Positions 3,937-14,398 are shown, counted from the stretch's first letter. The stretch: DNA of 64,000 nucleotides from Anaeromyxobacter dehalogenans 2CP-C (GCF_000013385.1 NC_007760.1:1365001-1429000); one strand, 5' to 3'. Numbers and translations are program-made. Notes: generated from the letters alone by a model not told the origin.

Positions 3937-6900
3937 CTAGGCCCCGCCGGCGGCCCGATCGCGCGCGGCCGGCGGCTCCGGCGCGTCGGCGACGGCGCGC
4001 GGCCCGCGGCGCCCGCGGCGGCGCAGCTTCTCCACCCACACGAAGACCACCGGCACCACCCACAGCGTCAGCATGGTGGAGGTGATCACGCCGCCGATGA
4101 CGGCGATGGCCATGGGCGCGCGGAACTCGCTGCCCATGCCCTTCCCGAGCGCGGTGGGCAGCATCCCCAGGATCATCGCGCCGCTCGTCATGAGGATGGG
4201 GCGAAGCCGGCGCGGGCCGGACCTGCGCACCGCGGTCTCCGGGTCGTCGCCCTCGCGGAGGTGCTGCAGCGCCCCGTCCACCAGCAGGATGGCGTTCTTC
4301 GTGACGAGCCCCATCAGCAGGATGATCCCGATGAGCGAGCCGAGGTTCACCGTCTGGCCGGCGATCCCCAGCCCCAGCACCGCGCCCACGATGGCGAGCG
4401 GGAGCGAGAGCATGATGGTGAACGGGTGGACGAACGACTCGAACTGGCTCGCCAGGACGATGAAGATGAACACCACCGCGATGAGCAGCGCCATCCCCAT
4501 GTTCGCCTGCGACTCGGCCTGCTCCTTCTGCATGCCGTCCCAGATGTACGCGTAGCCGGCCGGCAGCGGGCGCGCGCCCACCTTCGCGCGGAGCGCCTGC
4601 ACCGCGCCGCCCAGGTCGTACCCCGGGGCGATCTGCGCCCAGACCGAGATGCTGCGCTCGCGCCGCTGGTGCTCGATCACGGCCGGGCTGGTCGAGCGCT
4701 CGAGCCGCGCGAGCTGCGCGAGCGCCACCGGCCCGCGCGGCGTCGAGATCCACATCCCGTCGAGCGCGCCGCGCGACTCCCGGTCGTCCCCGGCCAGCCG
4801 CACGCGGATCTCCGACTCGCGCCGCCCCTCGCGCAGCTTGCCCGCGACCTCGCCCTGCGTGGCCAGGCGCACCTGCAGCGCGACCGCGCCGGCCGGGACG
4901 CCCAGCCGCGCCGCCTCCTCGCGGTCCACCTCGACCTGCAGCTCGGGCTTGCCCGGCGAGTCCTTGAGCTGGATGTCGGTGAGCGCAGGGATCTCGCGCA
5001 TCGCCGCGACCAGGCGCTCCGCCTCCTCGCGGAGCCGGGCGAAGTCGCGCCCGGTCACGTGCATGAGCACCGGCGGGAAGTCGCCGATGCCCTCCAGCAT
5101 GGGCGGGTCCGAGACGGCCCGGGTCGCGAGCCGCTCGTCGGCGGCGAGGACGCCGCGGATCCAGGCCTTGTACGTCTCGACGCCGTCGGGGCGCGCGTTC
5201 TTGTCCACGAGATTGACGCGCCAGCGGACCTGCCGCGGGTCCTCCTGGTAGCCGATGGTCGCGTAGACCGCGGTCACGCCGGGCAGCGCGCGCACGCGCT
5301 CCTCCAGGGTGGCGCTCCGCCGGGAGGCGGTGGCGAGGCTGGTGCCCGGCGGGTACTCCAGGTTCACGATGAGCTGGTTGCGGTCCTCCTTGGGCGCGAA
5401 CTCGGACCCGAGCAGCGGGGCCACCACCAGGCTGGCCAGGAACAGCAACGCGGCCGCCGCGAAGGTGAGGGCGCGGTGCCGGAGCACCCAGTCCAGCGTG
5501 CGCGCGTACACGCGATCGTTCGCGTCGAAGGCGGCGCGGATCCGCCGGGCCACCGGGTGCTCCCGCCGCTCCTGGCCCGGGACGTGGGCGCGCACGAACC
5601 GCGCCGAGAGCATCGGGTCGAGCGTGAACGCCACGAACAGCGAGATGAGCACGGCCACCGTGATGGTGAGCCCGAACTGGCGGAAGAACTGCCCGGTGAT
5701 GCCCTGCATGAACGCGACCGGCACGAACACCGCCACCAGGGTGAAGGTGGTCGCCATCACCGCCAGCGCGATCTCCTGCGTGCCGCGGCTGGCCGCCACC
5801 GGCGGCGGCTCCCCGGCCTCGAGCCGGCGGGTGATGCTCTCGCGGACCACCACCGCGTCGTCGATGAGCAGGCCGATCGCGAGCGAGAGGCCGAGCAGGG
5901 TGAGCTGGTTCAGCGAGAAGCCCATCCAGTACATCACGAACAGCGTGCCCACCACCGAGGTCGGCAGGGCGAGCGCGGAGATGACGGTGCCGCGCACGTC
6001 CAGCAGGAACAGCAGGATGATCAGCACGGCCATCGCGCCGCCGAAGAAGATGGCGACCCACACCTCGTGCGCGTTGGCCTCGATGATCACCGACTGGTCC
6101 ACCAGGACCTGCGCCCGGAAGCCGAGCTCGGCCTGTAGCTCGGGCAGCAGCCGCTTCACCTCGTTCGCGACCGCGGCGGAGTTCGCGCCGGCCTGCTTCA
6201 CCACCTCGACCGCGACCGCGTCCACGCCGTCGGTGCGGACCAGCGTCTTCGGCTCCTTGGCGCCCTTGCGCACCAGCGCCACCTCGGCGAGGCGCACCAG
6301 CGAGCCGTCCTGCGCCGCGGTCACCGGCATCCGGCGGAGCGCGTCCACGTCCCGGAACTCGCCGCGCACGCGGATGCCGACCTCGCCGTCGCCGGCCGGG
6401 AACTTCCCGCCGGGCAGGTCGAGGTGCTCGCCCTGGATGCGCCGGAACACGGCGTCCGGGTCCAGCCCGACCGCGCGGAGCCGGTCGCGGAACAGGTCCA
6501 CCGAGACCTCCGGCTCGGCCCCGCCCACGATGCGCACCGCCGCCACGCCCTCGAGCTGCTCGAGCCGCGGGCGCACCTGGTCGTCCAGCTTCTCGCGGAG
6601 CGCGACGGGATCCTGGCCGGACGCCGCCGAGAACACGAGCACCGGCTGCGCCGCCACGTCGTACTGCGCGATCACCGGCGCGCGGGCGCCGAGCGGCAGC
6701 TCCCCCTGCGCGATGCCCACCTTGTCGCGGACGTTCTGGACCGCCTCGCCCAGCGGGACCGACAGCTCGAACTCGATGAACACCAGCGACACGTCCTCGC
6801 GCGAGGACGAGAAGACCTTGTCGATCCCGGCGATGGACGAGACCGCGTCCTCGATGGGACGGGTGACGTTCTCCTCGACGTCGCCCGGGCTCGCGCCGGG

Positions 6901-7053
6901 GTAGGTGGTGGTGACGGTGACGAACGGCATGCTGACGTCGGGGTAGAGGTCGGTGCCCAGCCGGCGCAGGCCGAGCAGGCCGAGCACGACCAGCGTCACC
7001 GACATCATGGCGGTGAAGACCGGCCGGCGGATGGCGACGTCGGAGAGCGTCAT
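3937..7053 (-). CDS. RND efflux pump, inner-membrane permease (AcrB/HAE1 type)
   Basis: This 1038-residue protein has the AcrB/MexB layout: an N-terminal transmembrane helix (about 12-30), two large periplasmic loops and twelve membrane helices. The proton-relay pair of helix 4 is present in IDDAVVV at about residues 397-398, and the helix-10 lysine in LVTKNA at about 919. It should export hydrophobic drugs, solvents or metabolites using the proton gradient. The ATG at 7053 overlaps the stop of the adaptor gene (ATGA), so the two are translationally coupled. An upstream in-frame start would lengthen it by 58 residues of GR-rich sequence and is rejected. No outer-membrane channel sits directly in this operon, but a TolC-like gene is next door (8997-10439). 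Confidence 0.95.
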   Translation of the reverse strand: MTLSDVAIRRPVFTAMMSVTLVVLGLLGLRRLGTDLYPDVSMPFVTVTTTYPGASPGDVEENVTRPIEDAVSSIAGIDKVFSSSREDVSLVFIEFELSVPLGEAVQNVRDKVGIAQGELPLGARAPVIAQYDVAAQPVLVFSAASGQDPVALREKLDDQVRPRLEQLEGVAAVRIVGGAEPEVSVDLFRDRLRAVGLDPDAVFRRIQGEHLDLPGGKFPAGDGEVGIRVRGEFRDVDALRRMPVTAAQDGSLVRLAEVALVRKGAKEPKTLVRTDGVDAVAVEVVKQAGANSAAVANEVKRLLPELQAELGFRAQVLVDQSVIIEANAHEVWVAIFFGGAMAVLIILLFLLDVRGTVISALALPTSVVGTLFVMYWMGFSLNQLTLLGLSLAIGLLIDDAVVVRESITRRLEAGEPPPVAASRGTQEIALAVMATTFTLVAVFVPVAFMQGITGQFFRQFGLTITVAVLISLFVAFTLDPMLSARFVRAHVPGQERREHPVARRIRAAFDANDRVYARTLDWVLRHRALTFAAAALLFLASLVVAPLLGSEFAPKEDRNQLIVNLEYPPGTSLATASRRSATLEERVRALPGVTAVYATIGYQEDPRQVRWRVNLVDKNARPDGVETYKAWIRGVLAADERLATRAVSDPPMLEGIGDFPPVLMHVTGRDFARLREEAERLVAAMREIPALTDIQLKDSPGKPELQVEVDREEAARLGVPAGAVALQVRLATQGEVAGKLREGRRESEIRVRLAGDDRESRGALDGMWISTPRGPVALAQLARLERSTSPAVIEHQRRERSISVWAQIAPGYDLGGAVQALRAKVGARPLPAGYAYIWDGMQKEQAESQANMGMALLIAVVFIFIVLASQFESFVHPFTIMLSLPLAIVGAVLGLGIAGQTVNLGSLIGIILLMGLVTKNAILLVDGALQHLREGDDPETAVRRSGPRRLRPILMTSGAMILGMLPTALGKGMGSEFRAPMAIAVIGGVITSTMLTLWVVPVVFVWVEKLRRRGRRGPRAVADAPEPPAARDRAAGGA

Positions 7054-8180
7054 CCGCGCACCTGCGCCAGCGCCGTGCCCTCGGCCAGCCCGACCGGCGG
7101 GTCGGTGACGACGCGCAGCCCCTCCGGCCAGGCGCCGCCCTCCGGCACGATCACCGCGGTCTCGCCCTCCTCGGCGAGCAGGCGCACCGGCAGGGCCCGC
7201 GCCTTGCCGTCCGCGCCGGCCACCCACACCGCGTGGCCGCCGGTGCGCTGCACCAGCGCCGGCGCGGGCACGCGGAAGGCGTCGCGCTCCGCCCCGCGGG
7301 GCAGGTCGGCGCGCGCGTACGCGTTCGCGAGGAAGCGGCCGTCGGGATTGGGGACCGCGATCTCCACCGGAACGCGGTTCGTGGCCGCGTCCACCGCGGG
7401 GACCACCACCGTCACCACCGCGTCCGCCGTGCGCGCCCCGATGCCGGGGAGCGACACGGCCACGCGGGCGCCGGGCCGGAGCTCGGCGGCCTCCGACTGC
7501 GTGAGGGAGGTCTCGAGCACCAGCTCGCGCGTGGTGACGAGCGTGACCAGCGGGACGCCCGGCGACACGGTGATGCCCACGCCGTCCGGCACGCGCGTGA
7601 CCACCCCGGCGAAGGGCGCGACCAGCCGGTGGTGGGAGAGGTGGACCCGCGCCTGCTCCGCCTGCGCCTGGGCCGCGGCGAGGTGCGCGGCGGCGAGGTC
7701 GCGCTGGGCCCGCGCCTGCGTGGCCTGGGCCTCCGAGGCCCCCTCCTCGCGGCGGAGCCGCTCGGTGCGCGCGAGGGCGTCCTCCGCCAGCGCGAGCTGC
7801 GCCCGGGCGGCCGCGACCGCGGCCTCGGCCTGCCGGACCGCCGCGGAGGCGGCGCCGGTGTCGAGCACGGCCAGCAGCGCCCCCTCGCGCACCTCCTGCC
7901 CGCGGCGCACGGCGACGCGCTCCAGCGTGCCGGCCACGCTCACCGCCAGGACCGAGGCCTGGCGCGCCTTCAGGGTCCCGGTGGCGGTGACGCGCGGCGC
8001 GAAGCGGACGCGCTCCGGGGCGGCGAGGTGCGCGGCGGCCGCCGCCGGTCCGGCGGCGGGCGCGGGGGCGGGCGCGGGGGCGGTCGCCGGCGCGGGAGGC
8101 GGCGGGGGCCGATCGGCGCCGCGGCGGCCGCAGGCGGCCGCGGCGAGCGCGAGGAGCAGGGCGGGGCGGAGCGGCGGCAT
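7050..8180 (-). CDS. RND efflux periplasmic adaptor (membrane fusion protein)
   Basis: The 376-residue adaptor has an export signal ending in LALAAAAC (Cys17), which looks like an atypical lipoprotein box. A long Pro/Ala stretch (about 25-50) follows. Then come a split biotinyl-lipoyl domain, an Ala/Arg/Glu-rich alpha-helical hairpin at about 120-195 (AAVRQAEAAVAAARAQLALA and following), and a beta-barrel domain. It should bridge the RND permease to a TolC-type channel. It is the first gene of a coupled pair with the permease. A TACAAC -10 box (8213-8218) and a palindromic operator (8197-8212) lie just upstream, inside the end of the tetR gene, so it has its own repressible promoter. Confidence 0.92.
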   Translation of the reverse strand: MPPLRPALLLALAAAACGRRGADRPPPPPAPATAPAPAPAPAAGPAAAAAHLAAPERVRFAPRVTATGTLKARQASVLAVSVAGTLERVAVRRGQEVREGALLAVLDTGAASAAVRQAEAAVAAARAQLALAEDALARTERLRREEGASEAQATQARAQRDLAAAHLAAAQAQAEQARVHLSHHRLVAPFAGVVTRVPDGVGITVSPGVPLVTLVTTRELVLETSLTQSEAAELRPGARVAVSLPGIGARTADAVVTVVVPAVDAATNRVPVEIAVPNPDGRFLANAYARADLPRGAERDAFRVPAPALVQRTGGHAVWVAGADGKARALPVRLLAEEGETAVIVPEGGAWPEGLRVVTDPPVGLAEGTALAQVRG

Positions 8181-8196
8181 GTGCGGATCTCCGATG

Positions 8197-8212
8197 CTGA
8201 CCGGCGGGTCAG
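8197..8212. promoter_or_regulatory. Operator 1 of the RND-pump TetR repressor
   Basis: CTGACC-GGCG-GGTCAG is a perfect 6-bp inverted repeat with a 4-bp spacer. It directly follows a TACAAC -10 box (minus strand, 8218-8213), so the predicted transcription start of the adaptor-permease mRNA falls inside it. It overlaps the tetR stop codon. The same half-sites recur at 8926-8941 upstream of tetR. Confidence 0.8.
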
Positions 8213-8880
8213 GTTGTAGCGCGGCGGGTGCGAGGGGGCGGCGCGGCGCGCGCGGCCGGCCCCGCCATGCCCTCGTAGAAGATGGTCAGGAAGGAGCGCG
8301 CCCACCCGGCGAGATCCGGCTTCTGGCGCAGCTCGGCCGTCCGCCGCACGAAGCCCTCGTACGTGCCGACCAGCAGGTCGGCCACGGCGGAGGGGTCGAT
8401 GTCGCGGCGGAGGCGGCCGGCGGCCTGCTTCGCGGCGATGCGATCGCGCAGGGCACGCTGCAGGCGCCGCCGGAAGTCGGCCAGGCCGCGGGTCCACGCC
8501 GGCCCGGCCGCCTCCAGCGCGCGGATCACGTGGCGGTTGCGCCAGAGCAGCTCGAGCGACTCCAGGTCCACCTGCACCTCGAACTCGAGCTGGGCGCGCA
8601 GCAGCGCCGGGCCGTCCTCGTCCCCGTGCTCCCGGTCGAAGCGGCGCTCCGCCTCCTCGCGGCGCCGGGTCTGCTCCTCGAGCGCGCCGTAGAGCCGCTG
8701 GACGAGCTCCGCGAAGGCCGCGTCCTTGGTGCGGAAGTGCAGGTAGAAGGCGCCCTTGGAGATGCCGGCGCGGCGCGCGATGTCCTCGACGCGGGCGCGC
8801 GCGAGCCCGTGGCGGCAGATCTCCTCGCGGGCGGCCTCGAGCAGCGCCTCGTGGGCGCCAGGGGCTGGGCGGCGGGCCAT
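8209..8880 (-). CDS. TetR-family repressor of the RND pump
   Basis: This 223-residue regulator has a canonical TetR N-terminal helix-turn-helix at about residues 27-50 (VEDIARRAGISKGAFYLHF), followed by an all-helical ligand domain. The ATG at 8880 is preferred to one 13 codons upstream because the promoter (TTGCGA, 17 bases, TACAAC at 8891-8919) leaves only 10 bases before it and would lie inside the longer frame. Two identical-half-site palindromes, one upstream of its own promoter and one over the adaptor promoter, indicate autoregulation and control of the pump. The inducer is unknown. Its coding end contains the adaptor's promoter. Confidence 0.9.
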   Translation of the reverse strand: MARRPAPGAHEALLEAAREEICRHGLARARVEDIARRAGISKGAFYLHFRTKDAAFAELVQRLYGALEEQTRRREEAERRFDREHGDEDGPALLRAQLEFEVQVDLESLELLWRNRHVIRALEAAGPAWTRGLADFRRRLQRALRDRIAAKQAAGRLRRDIDPSAVADLLVGTYEGFVRRTAELRQKPDLAGWARSFLTIFYEGMAGPAARAAPPPRTRRATT

Positions 8881-8890
8881 GGCGACGCCC

Positions 8891-8919
8891 GTTGTACGGC
8901 GCCGCGCGCGCGATCGCAA
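8891..8919 (-). promoter_or_regulatory. Promoter of the RND-pump tetR gene
   Basis: TTGCGA (8914-8919) and TACAAC (8891-8896) are separated by exactly 17 bases. The ATG follows the -10 box by 10 bases, so the leader should be only about 3-4 bases. Confidence 0.65.
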
Positions 8920-8996: not shown

Positions 8997-10439
8997 TCAC
9001 GGATCGAACGTGCCGTCCGCGCGTGCCAGGGCGAGGCGCGCCAGCCGGGCGTCGAGCGTGGCCGCGACCAGGCCGAGCTCGGCGGAGGACGCGGCGCTGG
9101 TGGCGTCCGCGACCTCGAGGTAGGTGGCCGCGCCGGCCGCGTGCGCCCGCTGCGCCTGCTCCAGCGCCTCGCGCGCCAGCGCGGCCTGCTCCTCGGCCTT
9201 CCGCGCGGCCGCCGCCGCGCTGTCGAGGTCCAGCCGGGCGCGCCGGACGTCGTCGCGGGCCTTGTTCGAGGCGAGCGCGAGCGCCGCGTCGGCCTCGGCC
9301 GCGCGGTGGCCCGCGTCGGCGAGCTCCGCCTCGCGCCGGCCGCCGTCGAAGAGCGTCCACTGGAGGCCGAGCATCACGGTCCAGCCGGCGTGCTCGCCGG
9401 TGAAGCCGGTGATGCTGGCCCAGCGCCAGGTCCCGCTCACGCCCAGCGTCGGGAGGTACGCGGCGGCGGCCTCGCGGCGCTGGCCCTGCGCCAGCGCCAG
9501 CCGCCCGCGGGCGGCCTCCACGTCGGGCCGGCGGGCCGCGCGCTCCTCCTGCTCCCGGGCGCCGGCGGACGGCGCCGGCGGCTCGGGCGGACGCTCCACG
9601 TCGAAGTCCGCGTCGCGATCCAGCAGCGTCGCGAGCGCGAGCCGGGCCGCCGCGTACGCGTTGCGCGTCCGGATCAGCTCCTGCTCGGCGCGGGCGCGAT
9701 CGGTGCGCGCCTTCAGCAGCGCCAGGCGCGGCGCGGCGCCCTGGGCCACGAGGTGCTCGGCGTCGGTCTCGTGCCGGCGCCAGGTCTCGAGCGTGCGCTC
9801 CTGGACGGCGACCGCCTCGCGGAGGGTCGCCGCGCCGTAGTAGAGCTGCGCCACGCCGTACAGCAGCTTCTGGCGGGTGTCGGCGACCTGCGCGCCCGCC
9901 ACCTCCTCGGCCAGGTACGCGTTGCGGATGGCCGGCCAGAGCCGCGGGGCCAGCAGCGCCTGCCGCACCTCGGCCTGGACGCCGTACTGCGTCCTCCGCT
10001 GCAGCTCCAGCTCCTCGACCGACGTCGGGACGAGCGCGAGGGTGGTCGCCTCGCCGGGCAGGTTGACGGGCGAGAACGGGCGGCCGGGGTCGTAGGGCGG
10101 GAGCGCCGCGCGCGGCGCGCTGGTGGGCCGGCCCAGGTCGCGGATGGCGAAGCTGGTGGGCAGGTCGAGCACCACGTCCTCGGAGTTCCAGGCGTACGAG
10201 CCGCCCGCGGTCACCTGCGGCAGGTAGTGGCTCCACGCCTTCCGCGCGAGCGTGCGCGCCTGCGCCAGCCGCTCGCCGGCGATGCGCAGCTCGAGGCTGG
10301 CCTCGCGGGCTCGGCGGAAGGCCGCGTCCAGCGTGAGCACCGGCGGCGGGGTGGCGGCCTCGGCCGCGGCCAGGGGTACGCCTGCGCCGGCGTCCGCGGC
10401 CGCGGCGAGCGCGAGGGCGAGCAGGGCGGGGGAGATCAT
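8997..10439 (-). CDS. TolC-family outer-membrane efflux channel
   Basis: This 480-residue protein has a short export signal (about 1-20). Two similar helical halves follow, each beginning with the family's LTLDAAFRRAREASLELRIA-like pattern; the second half is around 300-470 with RRPDVEAARGRLALAQGQRREA. It should form the trimeric outer-membrane duct for a tripartite exporter. Its ATG at 10439 overlaps the stop of the upstream ABC-2 permease (ATGA), making it the last gene of the tetR-hlyD-permease-permease-tolC operon. It could also serve the RND pump encoded 116 bases further on, which has no channel of its own. A much longer frame joining it to the permease frame is a shadow. Confidence 0.93.
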   Translation of the reverse strand: MISPALLALALAAAADAGAGVPLAAAEAATPPPVLTLDAAFRRAREASLELRIAGERLAQARTLARKAWSHYLPQVTAGGSYAWNSEDVVLDLPTSFAIRDLGRPTSAPRAALPPYDPGRPFSPVNLPGEATTLALVPTSVEELELQRRTQYGVQAEVRQALLAPRLWPAIRNAYLAEEVAGAQVADTRQKLLYGVAQLYYGAATLREAVAVQERTLETWRRHETDAEHLVAQGAAPRLALLKARTDRARAEQELIRTRNAYAAARLALATLLDRDADFDVERPPEPPAPSAGAREQEERAARRPDVEAARGRLALAQGQRREAAAAYLPTLGVSGTWRWASITGFTGEHAGWTVMLGLQWTLFDGGRREAELADAGHRAAEADAALALASNKARDDVRRARLDLDSAAAAARKAEEQAALAREALEQAQRAHAAGAATYLEVADATSAASSAELGLVAATLDARLARLALARADGTFDP

Positions 10440-11659
10440 GGGGTGCTCCTGGGGAGGGCGGCAGGCGGCTCGGCACCGGGCTTCCGTCGCAGGGCGGAGA
10501 GGCGGCGCGCCAGGGAGGCGCGGTGGACCACGAGCGCCGCCACCGCGGAGTGGAGGACGAGCAGCGCCCCCAGCCAGGCGAGCTGCGGCGCGACGGCGCC
10601 GAGGTCGCCGGTCTTCATGACCAGCACCCGCAGGGCCCGCAGCGCGGGGGTGGCCGGGAACACGGCGGTGGCGAGCTCGACCGCGCGCGGGAGCTGGCCC
10701 GGAGGCCAGGTGAACCCGGACGCGAGGAAGAGCGGCACCGAGAAGAACATCAGGAGCTGGAACGTGCCCATCCGGTCGCGCGCCAGGCTGGCCAGCCCGA
10801 TGGCCACGGGGACCATCACCACCGCGAACGCCAGCAGCAGCGTGGCGGTGGCGAGGACGCTCGGGCCGGCCCATCCCATGGCGGGCATGAGCACGAGCCC
10901 GATGAACACGACCCCGGCCAGCCAGAACGGCGCGTGGGCCGCGGCCATGCCGAGCAGCCGCGCCAGCGGGAGCGGCTCGCGGCCCGCGGGCGGCAGCCCG
11001 GCCTCGAGGCGCGCGCCGGCGCTGAACGCGAGCGAGACCACCACCAGCTGCTGGAGCACCACCAGGAAGATGCCGGCGGCGAGGTAGCGGCCGTAGGAGC
11101 CGGTGGGGTGGTACAGCAGCCGGTCGCCGGTCGCGATGGGCGCGGCGCGGGCGCGGGCCACCGCGGGAGGCATCCCCTTCGCGAGGAACGCCGCGGCCCG
11201 CACCCGCGCGCCGGTGGCGCCGGCGACCGTGACCGCGGCCGGGTAGGCGATGGCCCACGTGTACATGTTGGCCCCCCCGGCCCACACCGCGAGCTGGGCC
11301 TGCTCGCCGCGCTTCAGCCGGCGCGAGAAGTCGGGCGGGACGACCACCAGGAGCTCGGCCTCGTCCCGGCGCAGCGCGGCCATGCCGTCGTCGAGCGAGG
11401 CGACGCGCCGTGCGACGCGGAGCTCCGGGGTCGCCTCGAGCTCGAGGGCCACGCGGCGGGAGAGCGCCGAGCCGTCCAGGTCGAGCAGCAGCGCCGGCCG
11501 GTCGCGCGCGTCCTCCGCGTGGTAGAGGTACGCGACGATCACCGGGTAGAGCAGGGGGATCGCGACGAGCACGAGCAGGATCGACCGCTCCCGGAAGATC
11601 CGCCCCCGCTCCTCGCGCGCGCTCGCGCGCAGCACGTCCTGCCACGCCCGGGCGGTCAT
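10436..11659 (-). CDS. ABC-2 type transporter permease (second of two)
   Basis: The 407-residue protein has one N-terminal membrane helix (about 26-47), a large extracytoplasmic domain with the DLDGS and VVVPPDFSRRLKRGE motifs, then five or six helices in the C-terminal half. This is the ABC2_membrane_3/YhhJ-YbhR layout. It would form the membrane part of an exporter with its paralogue at 11656-12792, the HlyD adaptor and the TolC channel. Both ends overlap neighbours by 4 bases (ATGA), so translation is coupled along the operon. No ATP-binding subunit or domain is found in it or anywhere in the operon. Confidence 0.88.
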   Translation of the reverse strand: MTARAWQDVLRASAREERGRIFRERSILLVLVAIPLLYPVIVAYLYHAEDARDRPALLLDLDGSALSRRVALELEATPELRVARRVASLDDGMAALRRDEAELLVVVPPDFSRRLKRGEQAQLAVWAGGANMYTWAIAYPAAVTVAGATGARVRAAAFLAKGMPPAVARARAAPIATGDRLLYHPTGSYGRYLAAGIFLVVLQQLVVVSLAFSAGARLEAGLPPAGREPLPLARLLGMAAAHAPFWLAGVVFIGLVLMPAMGWAGPSVLATATLLLAFAVVMVPVAIGLASLARDRMGTFQLLMFFSVPLFLASGFTWPPGQLPRAVELATAVFPATPALRALRVLVMKTGDLGAVAPQLAWLGALLVLHSAVAALVVHRASLARRLSALRRKPGAEPPAALPRSTP

Positions 11660-12792
11660 GCGGTCCTCCGGGCGCGCGCCCGGGCCACCAGCGCCCGCGC
11701 CGCCCTCGAGGCCGCGATCACCGCCGCGAAGCCCGCGGCCTGCGCCGCGAGCCAGCCGAGCGGGCCCGCCAGATCGCGCAGCGCGGCGGGCTCGTGCAGG
11801 AAGATCCGCAGCGCGCGGCCGAAGGGGGTGAACGGGAGCGCGCTCGCGACCGCGCGGATCGGCCCGGGGATGACGTCCCAGGGCCAGGTGAGCCCGGAGA
11901 ACATGAGCGAGAGCATCCCGAGCAGCACCGTGGACTGGAACGCGAACGGGCCGCCGCCGAGCAGCGCCGCGAGCGCCGCCGCGAACAGGAGCTCCGCTCC
12001 CACGAGCGCGAGCAGCGAGCATGCGACCACCGGGAACGGGCTCGCGGGGCGGATCCCGTCGATGCGCAGCAGGCCGTAGGTGGACAGGAGCGCCAGGGCC
12101 AGCGACACCGCCAGCACCGCCGCCCACCGGCCCAGCGCCTCGGCCGGGCGGCGCCCCGGGGCGGCGGGCCAGATCACCGACCAGGCCAGGAACAGCGTCG
12201 CGAGGTGCACGAAGAACAGCGCGAACGCCGGGGCGAGGTACACGGCGAAGCTGGCGCCCGGGTTGCGCGACATCGCCTCGGTGACCACCACCGGCGCCGC
12301 CTTCGCGAGCGCGGCCGAGGGCGCGGTGCCGAGCTTCTGGAGCACGCCCAGCTCGACGCCCGCGGACACCGTCGCGAGCACCTTCGCGATCGTGCGCGAG
12401 GCGGTGCGCCCGACGAGCACGTTGCTCATGTCCACCGCGGCGAGGATCTCGGCGCGGCGCCCGCGCTTCAGGTCCGCCGAGAAGCCGTCGGGCACCAGGA
12501 CCACGCCCGCCAGCGCCCCGCGGTCGAGCGCCTCCTGCGCGGCCTCGAGCGTGGGGGGCGGATCCGTGAGCACGCGGAGCTCGGGGGTGGCGTCGAGGTA
12601 CCGGGCCACGGTGCGGGAGGGGCCGGTGCCGTCCAGGTCGAGGACGGCGATCGGGAGCTCGCGCATCACGCCCTGCCGATAGGTGGCGATGGTGAGCCAG
12701 CTCGCGCCCAGGAACACGGCCAGCATCAGCCGGTAGCGCGGGCTGGCGGCGAGCGCCCGCAGGTGCGCGAGGAAGGCGGCGCGGAACCCCAC
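11656..12792 (-). CDS. ABC-2 type transporter permease (first of two)
   Basis: This 378-residue paralogue of the next gene has the same design: an N-terminal helix (about 20-42), an extracytoplasmic domain with VLDLDGTGPSR and VVLVPDGFSADLKRGRR, and a C-terminal five- to six-helix bundle (FVHLATLFLAW, LLALVGAELLFAAAL, LGMLSLMFSGLTWP). The GTG start is 3 bases after the HlyD stop. The two proteins presumably pair as a heterodimer. Export substrates for such YbhSR/YhhJ-like systems are usually drugs, dyes or lipids, but nothing here fixes the substrate. Confidence 0.86.
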   Translation of the reverse strand: MGFRAAFLAHLRALAASPRYRLMLAVFLGASWLTIATYRQGVMRELPIAVLDLDGTGPSRTVARYLDATPELRVLTDPPPTLEAAQEALDRGALAGVVLVPDGFSADLKRGRRAEILAAVDMSNVLVGRTASRTIAKVLATVSAGVELGVLQKLGTAPSAALAKAAPVVVTEAMSRNPGASFAVYLAPAFALFFVHLATLFLAWSVIWPAAPGRRPAEALGRWAAVLAVSLALALLSTYGLLRIDGIRPASPFPVVACSLLALVGAELLFAAALAALLGGGPFAFQSTVLLGMLSLMFSGLTWPWDVIPGPIRAVASALPFTPFGRALRIFLHEPAALRDLAGPLGWLAAQAAGFAAVIAASRAARALVARARARRTA

Positions 12793-12795
12793 GGC

Positions 12796-13767
12796 TCACC
12801 TCCGGGCCGCGGGCAGGGCGGGCGCGAAGCGCGCGGTCATGCCGGGGCGCAGCTCGGGGTCCGGCTGGCGCGGCCGGGCCTTCACCTCGAACGTGCGCAG
12901 GTCGAAGCTGCCCTTCTCGCCGGTCGCGCGCCAGGTGGCGAAGTCGCCGAGCGGGGCCACCGAGAACACGGTCATGGGGAGGCGCCGGCGCAGCGCCGGG
13001 ACCTCGACGTCGAGCTCGGTCCCGACCTTCACCGCGCCGAGCAGGTCCTCGCGGACCGGGAACACCGCCCAGGCGTCGCTCCGGTCCACGAGCGTGAGGA
13101 TGGGGTAGCCGGTGGCGGCGAGCTCGCCGCGGTGGACCAGGATCTTCGCCACCTCGCCGCCGATGGGCGCGGTCTGGACCGTCTCGCGGCCGTAGCTCTC
13201 CACCTCGGCCAGGCTGCCCTGGCCCTGGCGGACCAGCGCGCGCAGCGCCTCGACCTCCTCGGCGCGGGCGCCCTTGATCACCAGGTCGTGGCGGGCCTGC
13301 GCCACCGCGAGCTGGTCCCGGGCGGCCTTGAACTTGAAGTCGGCCTCGTCGAAGGCGGCCTGGGTGATGGTCCCGGTGGCGAGCAGGGCGGTGGCGCGCT
13401 CGTGCGCCTTGGTGGCGACCTCCAGCTGGCTGCGGGCGGTGTCGAGCGCGCGGCGCGCCTGCTGCCGCTCCTCGGCGCGCGCGCCGCGCTCGGCGATCTG
13501 CAGCCGGGCGCGGGCGGCGTCCACCGCCGCCTTCACCTGGTCGATCTTCGCGGCGACCTCCTGGCTCTCGATGGTGACGAGCTCCTGGCCCTCCTTCACC
13601 GGGTCGCCCTCGCGCACCGCCAGCGCCTTCACGCGGCCGGGGATCTTCGAGGCGACGTCGATCTCGGTCGCGTCCACGAGGCCGGTGATGGGCGCCGGCG
13701 CGCGCTGGCCGCAGGCGGCCAGGAGCGCGACGGGCGCGAGGAGCAAGGGGAGGAGGCGGCGGGTCAT
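12796..13767 (-). CDS. HlyD-family periplasmic adaptor lipoprotein
   Basis: The 323-residue protein has a clear lipoprotein signal with LAAC (Cys19). A lipoyl half-motif comes early (VASKIPGRVKALAVREGDPVKEGQELVTI, about 40-67), followed by a long helical hairpin (about 68-185) and the second lipoyl half with PIGGEVAKILVHRGELA. This matches the YbhG/YhiI adaptor of ABC-2 exporters. It starts 1 base after the TetR stop and leads into the two permease genes, so it is the adaptor of that exporter. Confidence 0.92.
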   Translation of the reverse strand: MTRRLLPLLLAPVALLAACGQRAPAPITGLVDATEIDVASKIPGRVKALAVREGDPVKEGQELVTIESQEVAAKIDQVKAAVDAARARLQIAERGARAEERQQARRALDTARSQLEVATKAHERATALLATGTITQAAFDEADFKFKAARDQLAVAQARHDLVIKGARAEEVEALRALVRQGQGSLAEVESYGRETVQTAPIGGEVAKILVHRGELAATGYPILTLVDRSDAWAVFPVREDLLGAVKVGTELDVEVPALRRRLPMTVFSVAPLGDFATWRATGEKGSFDLRTFEVKARPRQPDPELRPGMTARFAPALPAARR

Positions 13768-13768
13768 C

Positions 13769-14398
13769 TCAGGCTCCGATTCCGTCGAGCAGGAGGCGCA
13801 CGAAGTCGCGCAGCACGGCCTCGCGCGCGCGGACCGCGCGCAGGTCGGTGGACCACAGCGCCTCCAGGAACGGGCGCTGCATGAAGTAGCCGAGGAACAG
13901 CGCGCCGACGCTCATGGTGAACGTCCGCGGATCCAGGTCGGCGCGGAAGGCGCCCTGGGCGACGCCGCGCCGGAGCACCGCGTGGATGGCGTCGAGGTTC
14001 GCGGCGATCCGGTCGGTGAGGAGCCTGCGGCCGCGGCGGGCGCGCGAGAGCGCCTCCCAGCCCATCAGCCGCACGAAGTCCTCGTGCTCGGAGAGGAACG
14101 CGAAGAAGCGGCGCACCAGCGCCTCCACCTCCTCGCGCGGCGCCGCGCGCGCCCCGGCGGGCGTGGGATCCGCGGCCGCGAGCGCGAGCGTCAGGTGCGC
14201 GTCGAGGACGGCGCGGTACAGGCCGTCCTTGTCGCCGAAGTAGGCGTAGATCATCCGCTTGTTCACGCCGGCGCGCGCCGCGATGTCGTCGATGCGCGCG
14301 CCGTCGTAGCCGTGCTCCGCGAAGGCGCGGCCGGCGGTCTCCAGCAGCCCGGCCCGGGTGGCCTGCGCGTCGCGCCTGCGTGGGGGAGCCTTCGCCAT
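13769..14398 (-). CDS. TetR-family regulator of the ABC-2 exporter operon
   Basis: This 209-residue regulator has a TetR helix-turn-helix at about 35-58 (IDDIAARAGVNKRMIYAYFG) and a C-terminal domain of the type found in YbiH/CecR-like repressors beside YbhG-S-R exporters. It is the first gene of a five-gene operon with almost no gaps. Its TATACT -10 box ends 7 bases before the ATG, and an AT-rich imperfect palindrome occupies the -10/-35 spacer, so it probably represses its own operon. Confidence 0.88.
   Translation of the reverse strand: MAKAPPRRRDAQATRAGLLETAGRAFAEHGYDGARIDDIAARAGVNKRMIYAYFGDKDGLYRAVLDAHLTLALAAADPTPAGARAAPREEVEALVRRFFAFLSEHEDFVRLMGWEALSRARRGRRLLTDRIAANLDAIHAVLRRGVAQGAFRADLDPRTFTMSVGALFLGYFMQRPFLEALWSTDLRAVRAREAVLRDFVRLLLDGIGA

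Follow-up and report, generated by a model that had tools for sequence, protein, structure and literature searches.

An ABC-2 permease operon of Anaeromyxobacter dehalogenans belongs to a widespread clade of operons without an ATPase gene

Gene Content of the Operon

The window analyzed here is a stretch of 64,000 nucleotides of Anaeromyxobacter dehalogenans 2CP-C, taken from a single contig of 5.01 Mb. It contains an operon of five genes (positions are counted from the first letter of the window):

14398-13769, minus strand: tetR (tetR1), the first gene of the operon, matching TetR_N (57.7 bits) and TetR_C_29 (76.5 bits) of Pfam
13767-12796, minus strand: hlyD, encoding a periplasmic adaptor, i.e., a membrane fusion protein, with HlyD_D23 and HlyD_3 above cut-off
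12792-11656, minus strand: permease A, GTG start, 378 amino acids, ABC2_membrane_3 95 bits (cut-off 31.6)
11659-10436, minus strand: permease B, 407 amino acids, ABC2_membrane_3 89 bits (cut-off 31.6)
10439-8997, minus strand: tolC, the last gene of the operon, encoding an outer membrane channel, OEP 157 bits (Pfam)

The successive spacings from tetR via hlyD, permease A, and permease B to tolC are +1, +3, -4, and -4 bases, and re-measurement thus bore out the tight packing described in the original prediction. Also its central observation, an exporter operon without its ATPase, was confirmed: an HMM for ABC ATPases gave zero matches among all ORFs of the 64-kb window, and none of the PF00005 matches of the whole genome falls inside it.

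According to AlphaFold models of permease A (pLDDT 90.1, pTM 0.81) and permease B (pLDDT 88.2, pTM 0.82), both proteins are true ABC-2 (type V) membrane domains, with a six-TM fold and an extracytoplasmic domain. The best Foldseek match of permease A was the ABCH transporter 8z01 (ABCH-9C), and the structural matches of permease B were ABCH-9C, ABCA4, and ABCG5/8 with Z of ~20-22. Comparing the permeases by sequence with solved structures yielded no useful match. The type V transporters ABCA, ABCG, and ABCH thus share the membrane-domain fold of the two permeases but, unlike these, possess NBDs and hydrolyze ATP.

An ATPase-Less Clade Across Many Phyla

Among congeners, orthologues were found only in two genomes (G001 and G004), likewise without an ATPase gene, the protein identity being 91-92% for permease B and 97-98% for HlyD. 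The other ABC-2 permeases of the family and the order, which are ~24-31% identical, adjoin one or two NBDs, with the exception of those in G018, and in related ABC-2 operons of the family the NBD or NBDs lie between the adaptor and the permeases. The two kinds of operons can be told apart by their adaptors. HlyD is ~35-62% identical to the adaptors of ATPase-less operons from many phyla vs. ~26-35% to ATPase-linked adaptors, and the adaptor score was 246 bits in G193 and 195 bits in G018, both ATPase-less, whereas NBD-containing loci scored ~100 bits. Judged by these alignments, the HlyD adaptor is a marker of the ATPase-less family. In the HlyD alignment, the adaptors of this family also have invariant residues in common at the C-terminal end (in the window: FATWRATGEKGSFDLRTFEV), and these residues near the C-terminus are a possible family signature.

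Two samples of relatives were analyzed. The first was obtained by an adaptor-alignment scan of 84,980 species genomes, which revealed at least 571 relatives, the best 80 of which were used. These best 80 are from Myxococcota, other Deltaproteobacteria, Bacteroidota, Ignavibacteriota, Calditrichota, Spirochaetota, Fibrobacterota, Vibrio, Sutterella, and others. They show the arrangement hlyD-permease-permease, although a few are truncated where the contig ends. In most of them, tolC is located immediately upstream, and many loci in this adaptor-based sample are accompanied by a TetR-type regulator. None of the best 80 of at least 571 relatives has an NBD in the operon. The second sample was collected with an HMM of permease B (E up to 1e-60), which matched in ~9% of the genomes sampled from two phyla (17 of 198 in Bacteroidota and 26 of 299 in Pseudomonadota); among the 40 regions read from it, no NBD was present in the hlyD-permease block. 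In Myxococcota, the scores of the same HMM were separated by a clean gap, with at least 354 bits in five genomes and 209 bits in the next, when permease A of G193 (243) is set aside.

With both samples combined, an NBD within the hlyD-permease block was found at 0 of 126 loci, 92 of which have at least 3 kb on either side. A same-strand NBD lies within 3 kb of the block at two of the 126 loci; one is a GlnQ-like importer ATPase, the other a C39-peptidase exporter, and neither is related by sequence. The comparison with related genomes for a lost ATPase gene, as proposed originally, thus revealed the opposite of what had been named as the sign of a simple recent deletion, namely, an ATPase gene conserved at this site in the majority of relatives. 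As the ATPase is absent from all 126 loci, the operon represents an old family rather than a broken copy, and the absence is a feature of the family rather than of this one locus. That the ATPase is always encoded in related systems, as stated earlier, is correct for the YbhGFSR-type loci that were checked, but not for the operon's own clade. YbhGFSR was therefore not the appropriate frame of reference, since the operon falls in a separate, widespread clade. In three loci of Bacteroidota (L305, L307, and L308), HlyD adjoins an apparently single permease of the ATPase-less clade, possibly a homodimeric version.

An unrooted tree of 98 permease sequences, gathered by differing queries, agrees with this division and does not place the two states in an order of time. 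The NBD-linked permeases, including YbhS, YbhR, YhhJ, and RbbA of E. coli, are on one side of a branch with an SH-aLRT of 99. Permease B constitutes one side of a branch as well (SH-aLRT 96), while permease A needs two changes. After removal of the coupling-loop columns, the values were 98 for the NBD-linked split and 84 for permease B. Permease A of the window groups with other permeases A and permease B is found in clade B, both outside the clade of YbhS and YbhR. The split between NBD-linked and NBD-less permeases and the separate branch of permease B together indicate that the two ATPase-less permeases are paralogs of old standing.

The Coupling Site and the Permease Pair

In ABC-2/type V transporters, the loop between TM2 and TM3 contacts the NBD. 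In NBD-linked ABC-2 permeases, this cytosolic loop reads (R)ERExGTxEQL, and its core, ExExG(T/S), is present in all four E. coli proteins, YbhR, YbhS, YhhJ, and RbbA. The corresponding features in the window are:

12148-12171, minus strand: TM2-TM3 cytosolic loop of permease A, residues 208-215, coupling motif absent
10970-11002, minus strand: TM2-TM3 cytosolic loop of permease B, residues 220-230, coupling motif absent
11048-11053, minus strand: Gln203-Gln204 in TM2 of permease B, a clade-specific polar pair

When the fixed pattern E[RWK][EFD]x[GRNQ][TSN]xE was scored, it was present in 37 of the 42 NBD-linked permeases, but in none of 77 permeases A and none of 77 permeases B (37/42 vs. 0/154; Fisher P ~7e-35, with all sequences counted as independent despite their kinship). 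With a nearly identical pattern, the motif was absent from all 35 permeases A and all 39 permeases B of the second sample. Both window permeases lack the motif ExExG(T/S)xE, and in their AlphaFold models the TM2-TM3 segment spans only 8 residues in permease A and 11 in permease B. Most permeases A outside the sub-clade of the window keep a partial motif, reading roughly ExxxGTxxWL (E in 82% and T in 66%, weighted); thus, some cytosolic partner may still dock there. Even the partial E/T of the loop is missing from both permeases in the window and in the sub-clade nearest to it. The polar pair QQ in TM2 was present in 67 of 77 permeases B of the first sample and in none of the 77 permeases A or the 42 NBD-linked permeases; in the second sample, the same pattern was found in only 20 of 39 permeases B. 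The permease alignments showed no conserved acidic residue within the membrane core. Hence, there is no obvious proton-relay residue, and a standard proton relay finds no support.

Natural fusions in the order A-B exist in a Bradyrhizobium plasmid protein of 776 amino acids and in two Pseudomonadota genomes:

L369:5894-8224, L317:2244-4661, and L326 ORF 6935-9475: A-B fusions of about 780-850 residues

An NBD domain was sought in these fusion proteins, but none was found. The fusions and the paralogous nature of the pair suggest that an A/B heterodimer is the working unit. Another large ORF, L306 ORF 6041-8884 of genome G211, encodes 948 residues with two permease domains, which fit the model of permease A about as well as that of permease B.

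Comparison With Known Systems

Among the closest known systems are YbhGFSR and YhiI-RbbA-YhhJ, which share with the window operon an HlyD protein and a pair of ABC2_membrane_3 permeases with the same fold. In E. coli, the TetR regulator CecR is encoded beside YbhG, and a TetR gene is part of the window operon, too. These systems differ from the window operon in having an in-operon ATPase, which in RbbA is fused to a permease domain, and the coupling motif, and in belonging to a separate clade. An ABC-2-like membrane domain without an NBD is also found in the YhgE/Pip family and EsaA, which are single proteins, mostly of Gram-positives. Permease A scored 24.5 bits with the YhgE/Pip model TIGR03062, i.e., below the cut-off of 102.2, and YhgE/Pip proteins are not known to have HlyD or TolC partners.

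The gene arrangement without an ATPase has already been published for Helicobacter pylori, where the operon HP1489-HP1486 encodes TolC, HlyD, and two ABC permease domains (Gibson et al., 2022, PMC9570263). The likeness to the window operon is one of published gene content, and the gene order is different: tolC-hlyD-permease-permease in H. pylori vs. tetR-hlyD-permease-permease-tolC in the window. Among the 18-19 NBD proteins of H. pylori, the authors saw no clear candidate for the ATPase, which they assume to act in trans (PMC9570263). In Bacteroides thetaiotaomicron, the genes BT3902-BT3904, encoding ABC permeases and HlyD, respond to iron supply (PMC10434189). The NBD-less LmrA-MD was reported to be a secondary-active translocator (PMC6155054). 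Like the window permeases, it is an ABC membrane domain without an NBD, but it is of type IV, is an artificial laboratory truncation, and is not part of a tripartite assembly. A paper describing or naming the ATPase-less family as such was not found in the open-access literature.

How the Operon May Be Energized

The original prediction had posed two alternatives, an ATPase borrowed from elsewhere or a permease pair that works without one; it was right in this choice and in that the ATPase is truly missing. The best explanation, which we favor with moderate confidence, is that the operon encodes a conserved NBD-less tripartite exporter, the A/B heterodimer of which works without a dedicated ATPase. 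Permeases A and B would form an inner-membrane heterodimer of the type V ABC fold, from which the HlyD adaptor and TolC would pass the substrate on over the periplasm and the outer membrane, and expression would be under the control of TetR. The pair would most likely run without an ATP-hydrolyzing subunit and might draw its energy from an ion gradient, the substrate gradient, or the membrane itself. Because the core contains no conserved acidic residues, gradient-driven or conduit-like action is considered as likely as proton antiport. From the likeness to the lipid and sterol exporters ABCA, ABCG, and ABCH, one might guess at a lipid or amphiphile as the substrate. More tentatively, the entire clade may consist of widespread ABC-2-derived tripartite exporters that permanently do without ATP hydrolysis, in which the A/B pair, sometimes fused, would be a secondary transporter or a gradient-driven conduit cooperating with HlyD and TolC.

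The main rival of the NBD-less reading, which we consider rather unlikely, is that the permease pair acts as an ordinary ABC exporter with an NBD that is encoded at another locus and shared with another transporter. In the A. dehalogenans genome, every other PF12698/PF01061 permease found has a nearby NBD. When the ~60 NBDs of this genome were ranked by likeness to YbhF and their TM-rich neighbors were listed, each of the eight most YbhF-like NBDs, against expectation for an ATPase acting in trans, was adjoined by a same-strand TM-rich ORF. Ranks nine and ten were taken by an NBD that, from its context, we presume to be LptB-like and by a COG4586-like NBD ~4 kb from two PF06182 permeases. Thus, the originally proposed search for an orphan YbhF/RbbA-like ATPase yielded no unpaired NBD of the YbhF or ABC-2 type among the ~60. 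Two apparent orphans were rejected, one at 735 kb, as it is followed by a permease-like ORF, and the COG4586-like one at 471 kb because of the PF06182 permease pair. In this latter locus (G000:C1:466372-472073), the two permeases and the ATPase are encoded on opposite strands, an unusual layout for such a system.

More favorable to an ATPase in trans is the situation in G598, another host of an ATPase-less operon, which still has ~46 NBDs in a genome of 2.0 Mb. One of these is an orphan of the ABC-2 type, YadG-like and without a neighboring permease, which possibly forms an unlinked pair with a distant permease:

L357:3290-4237 and G598:C1:1760608-1761240: YadG-like NBD and distant ABC2_membrane permease of G598

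Hence, unlinked NBD-permease pairs seem to occur. The orphan HP0853 was proposed as the ATPase of HP1486-1489, since its orthologue in H. anseris is reported to sit in an operon that the authors regard as equivalent (PMC9570263). The partial loop motif kept in many permeases A would likewise fit an ATPase in trans; against it, the complete motif is gone from 154 of 154 permeases, including both of the window, and linkage to an NBD, which the sister systems show as a rule, was seen at 0 of 126 loci.

A further alternative, which appears improbable, is that the operon does not encode an active pump but a gated conduit, or a lipid-moving or scaffolding module for envelope integrity. The lack of evident energy-coupling residues is compatible with such a role, and so are the YhgE/Pip proteins, ABC-2-like and devoid of an NBD, the model of which matches permease A weakly. 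In H. pylori, deletions in HP1486-1489 lowered motility and the number of flagella; the system affects the stability of the flagellum, and a structural role is considered by the authors (PMC9570263). However, HlyD is nearly always kept, TolC usually, and a TetR-type regulator in many loci, which is the layout of an exporter. Finally, that an ancestral YbhGFSR operon dropped its ATPase gene in the Anaeromyxobacter lineage and is now decaying is extremely improbable: related ABC-2 operons in the same bacterial family do hold one or two NBDs, placed between the adaptor gene and the permease genes, but recent deletion is contradicted by the ATPase-less state of the whole clade over many phyla, and the operon is intact, its proteins being 91-98% identical to those of two congeners.

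Implications

It is the ATPase that defines an ABC exporter. A large natural clade that combines the ABC-2 fold with an adaptor-TolC conduit, but has no linked ATPase and has lost the coupling motif, would show that the fold can be re-powered, and it offers a natural test bed for ABC membrane domains acting without ATP. It also recasts the puzzle of the missing ATPase of H. pylori HP1486-1489 as a possible property of a family. The plain label "ABC transporter permeases" given to such genes implies a pump driven by ATP, where there may be none.

The Neighboring Efflux Operon

A second efflux operon, on the minus strand at positions 3937-8919 of the window, starts 77 bases past tolC:

8919-8209, minus strand: tetR2
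8180-7050, minus strand: membrane fusion protein
7032-3937, minus strand: AcrB-type RND pump, in an operon without a tolC of its own

This RND operon may use the tolC of the ATPase-less operon jointly. The two operons adjoin each other also in the congener G004 (locus L084).
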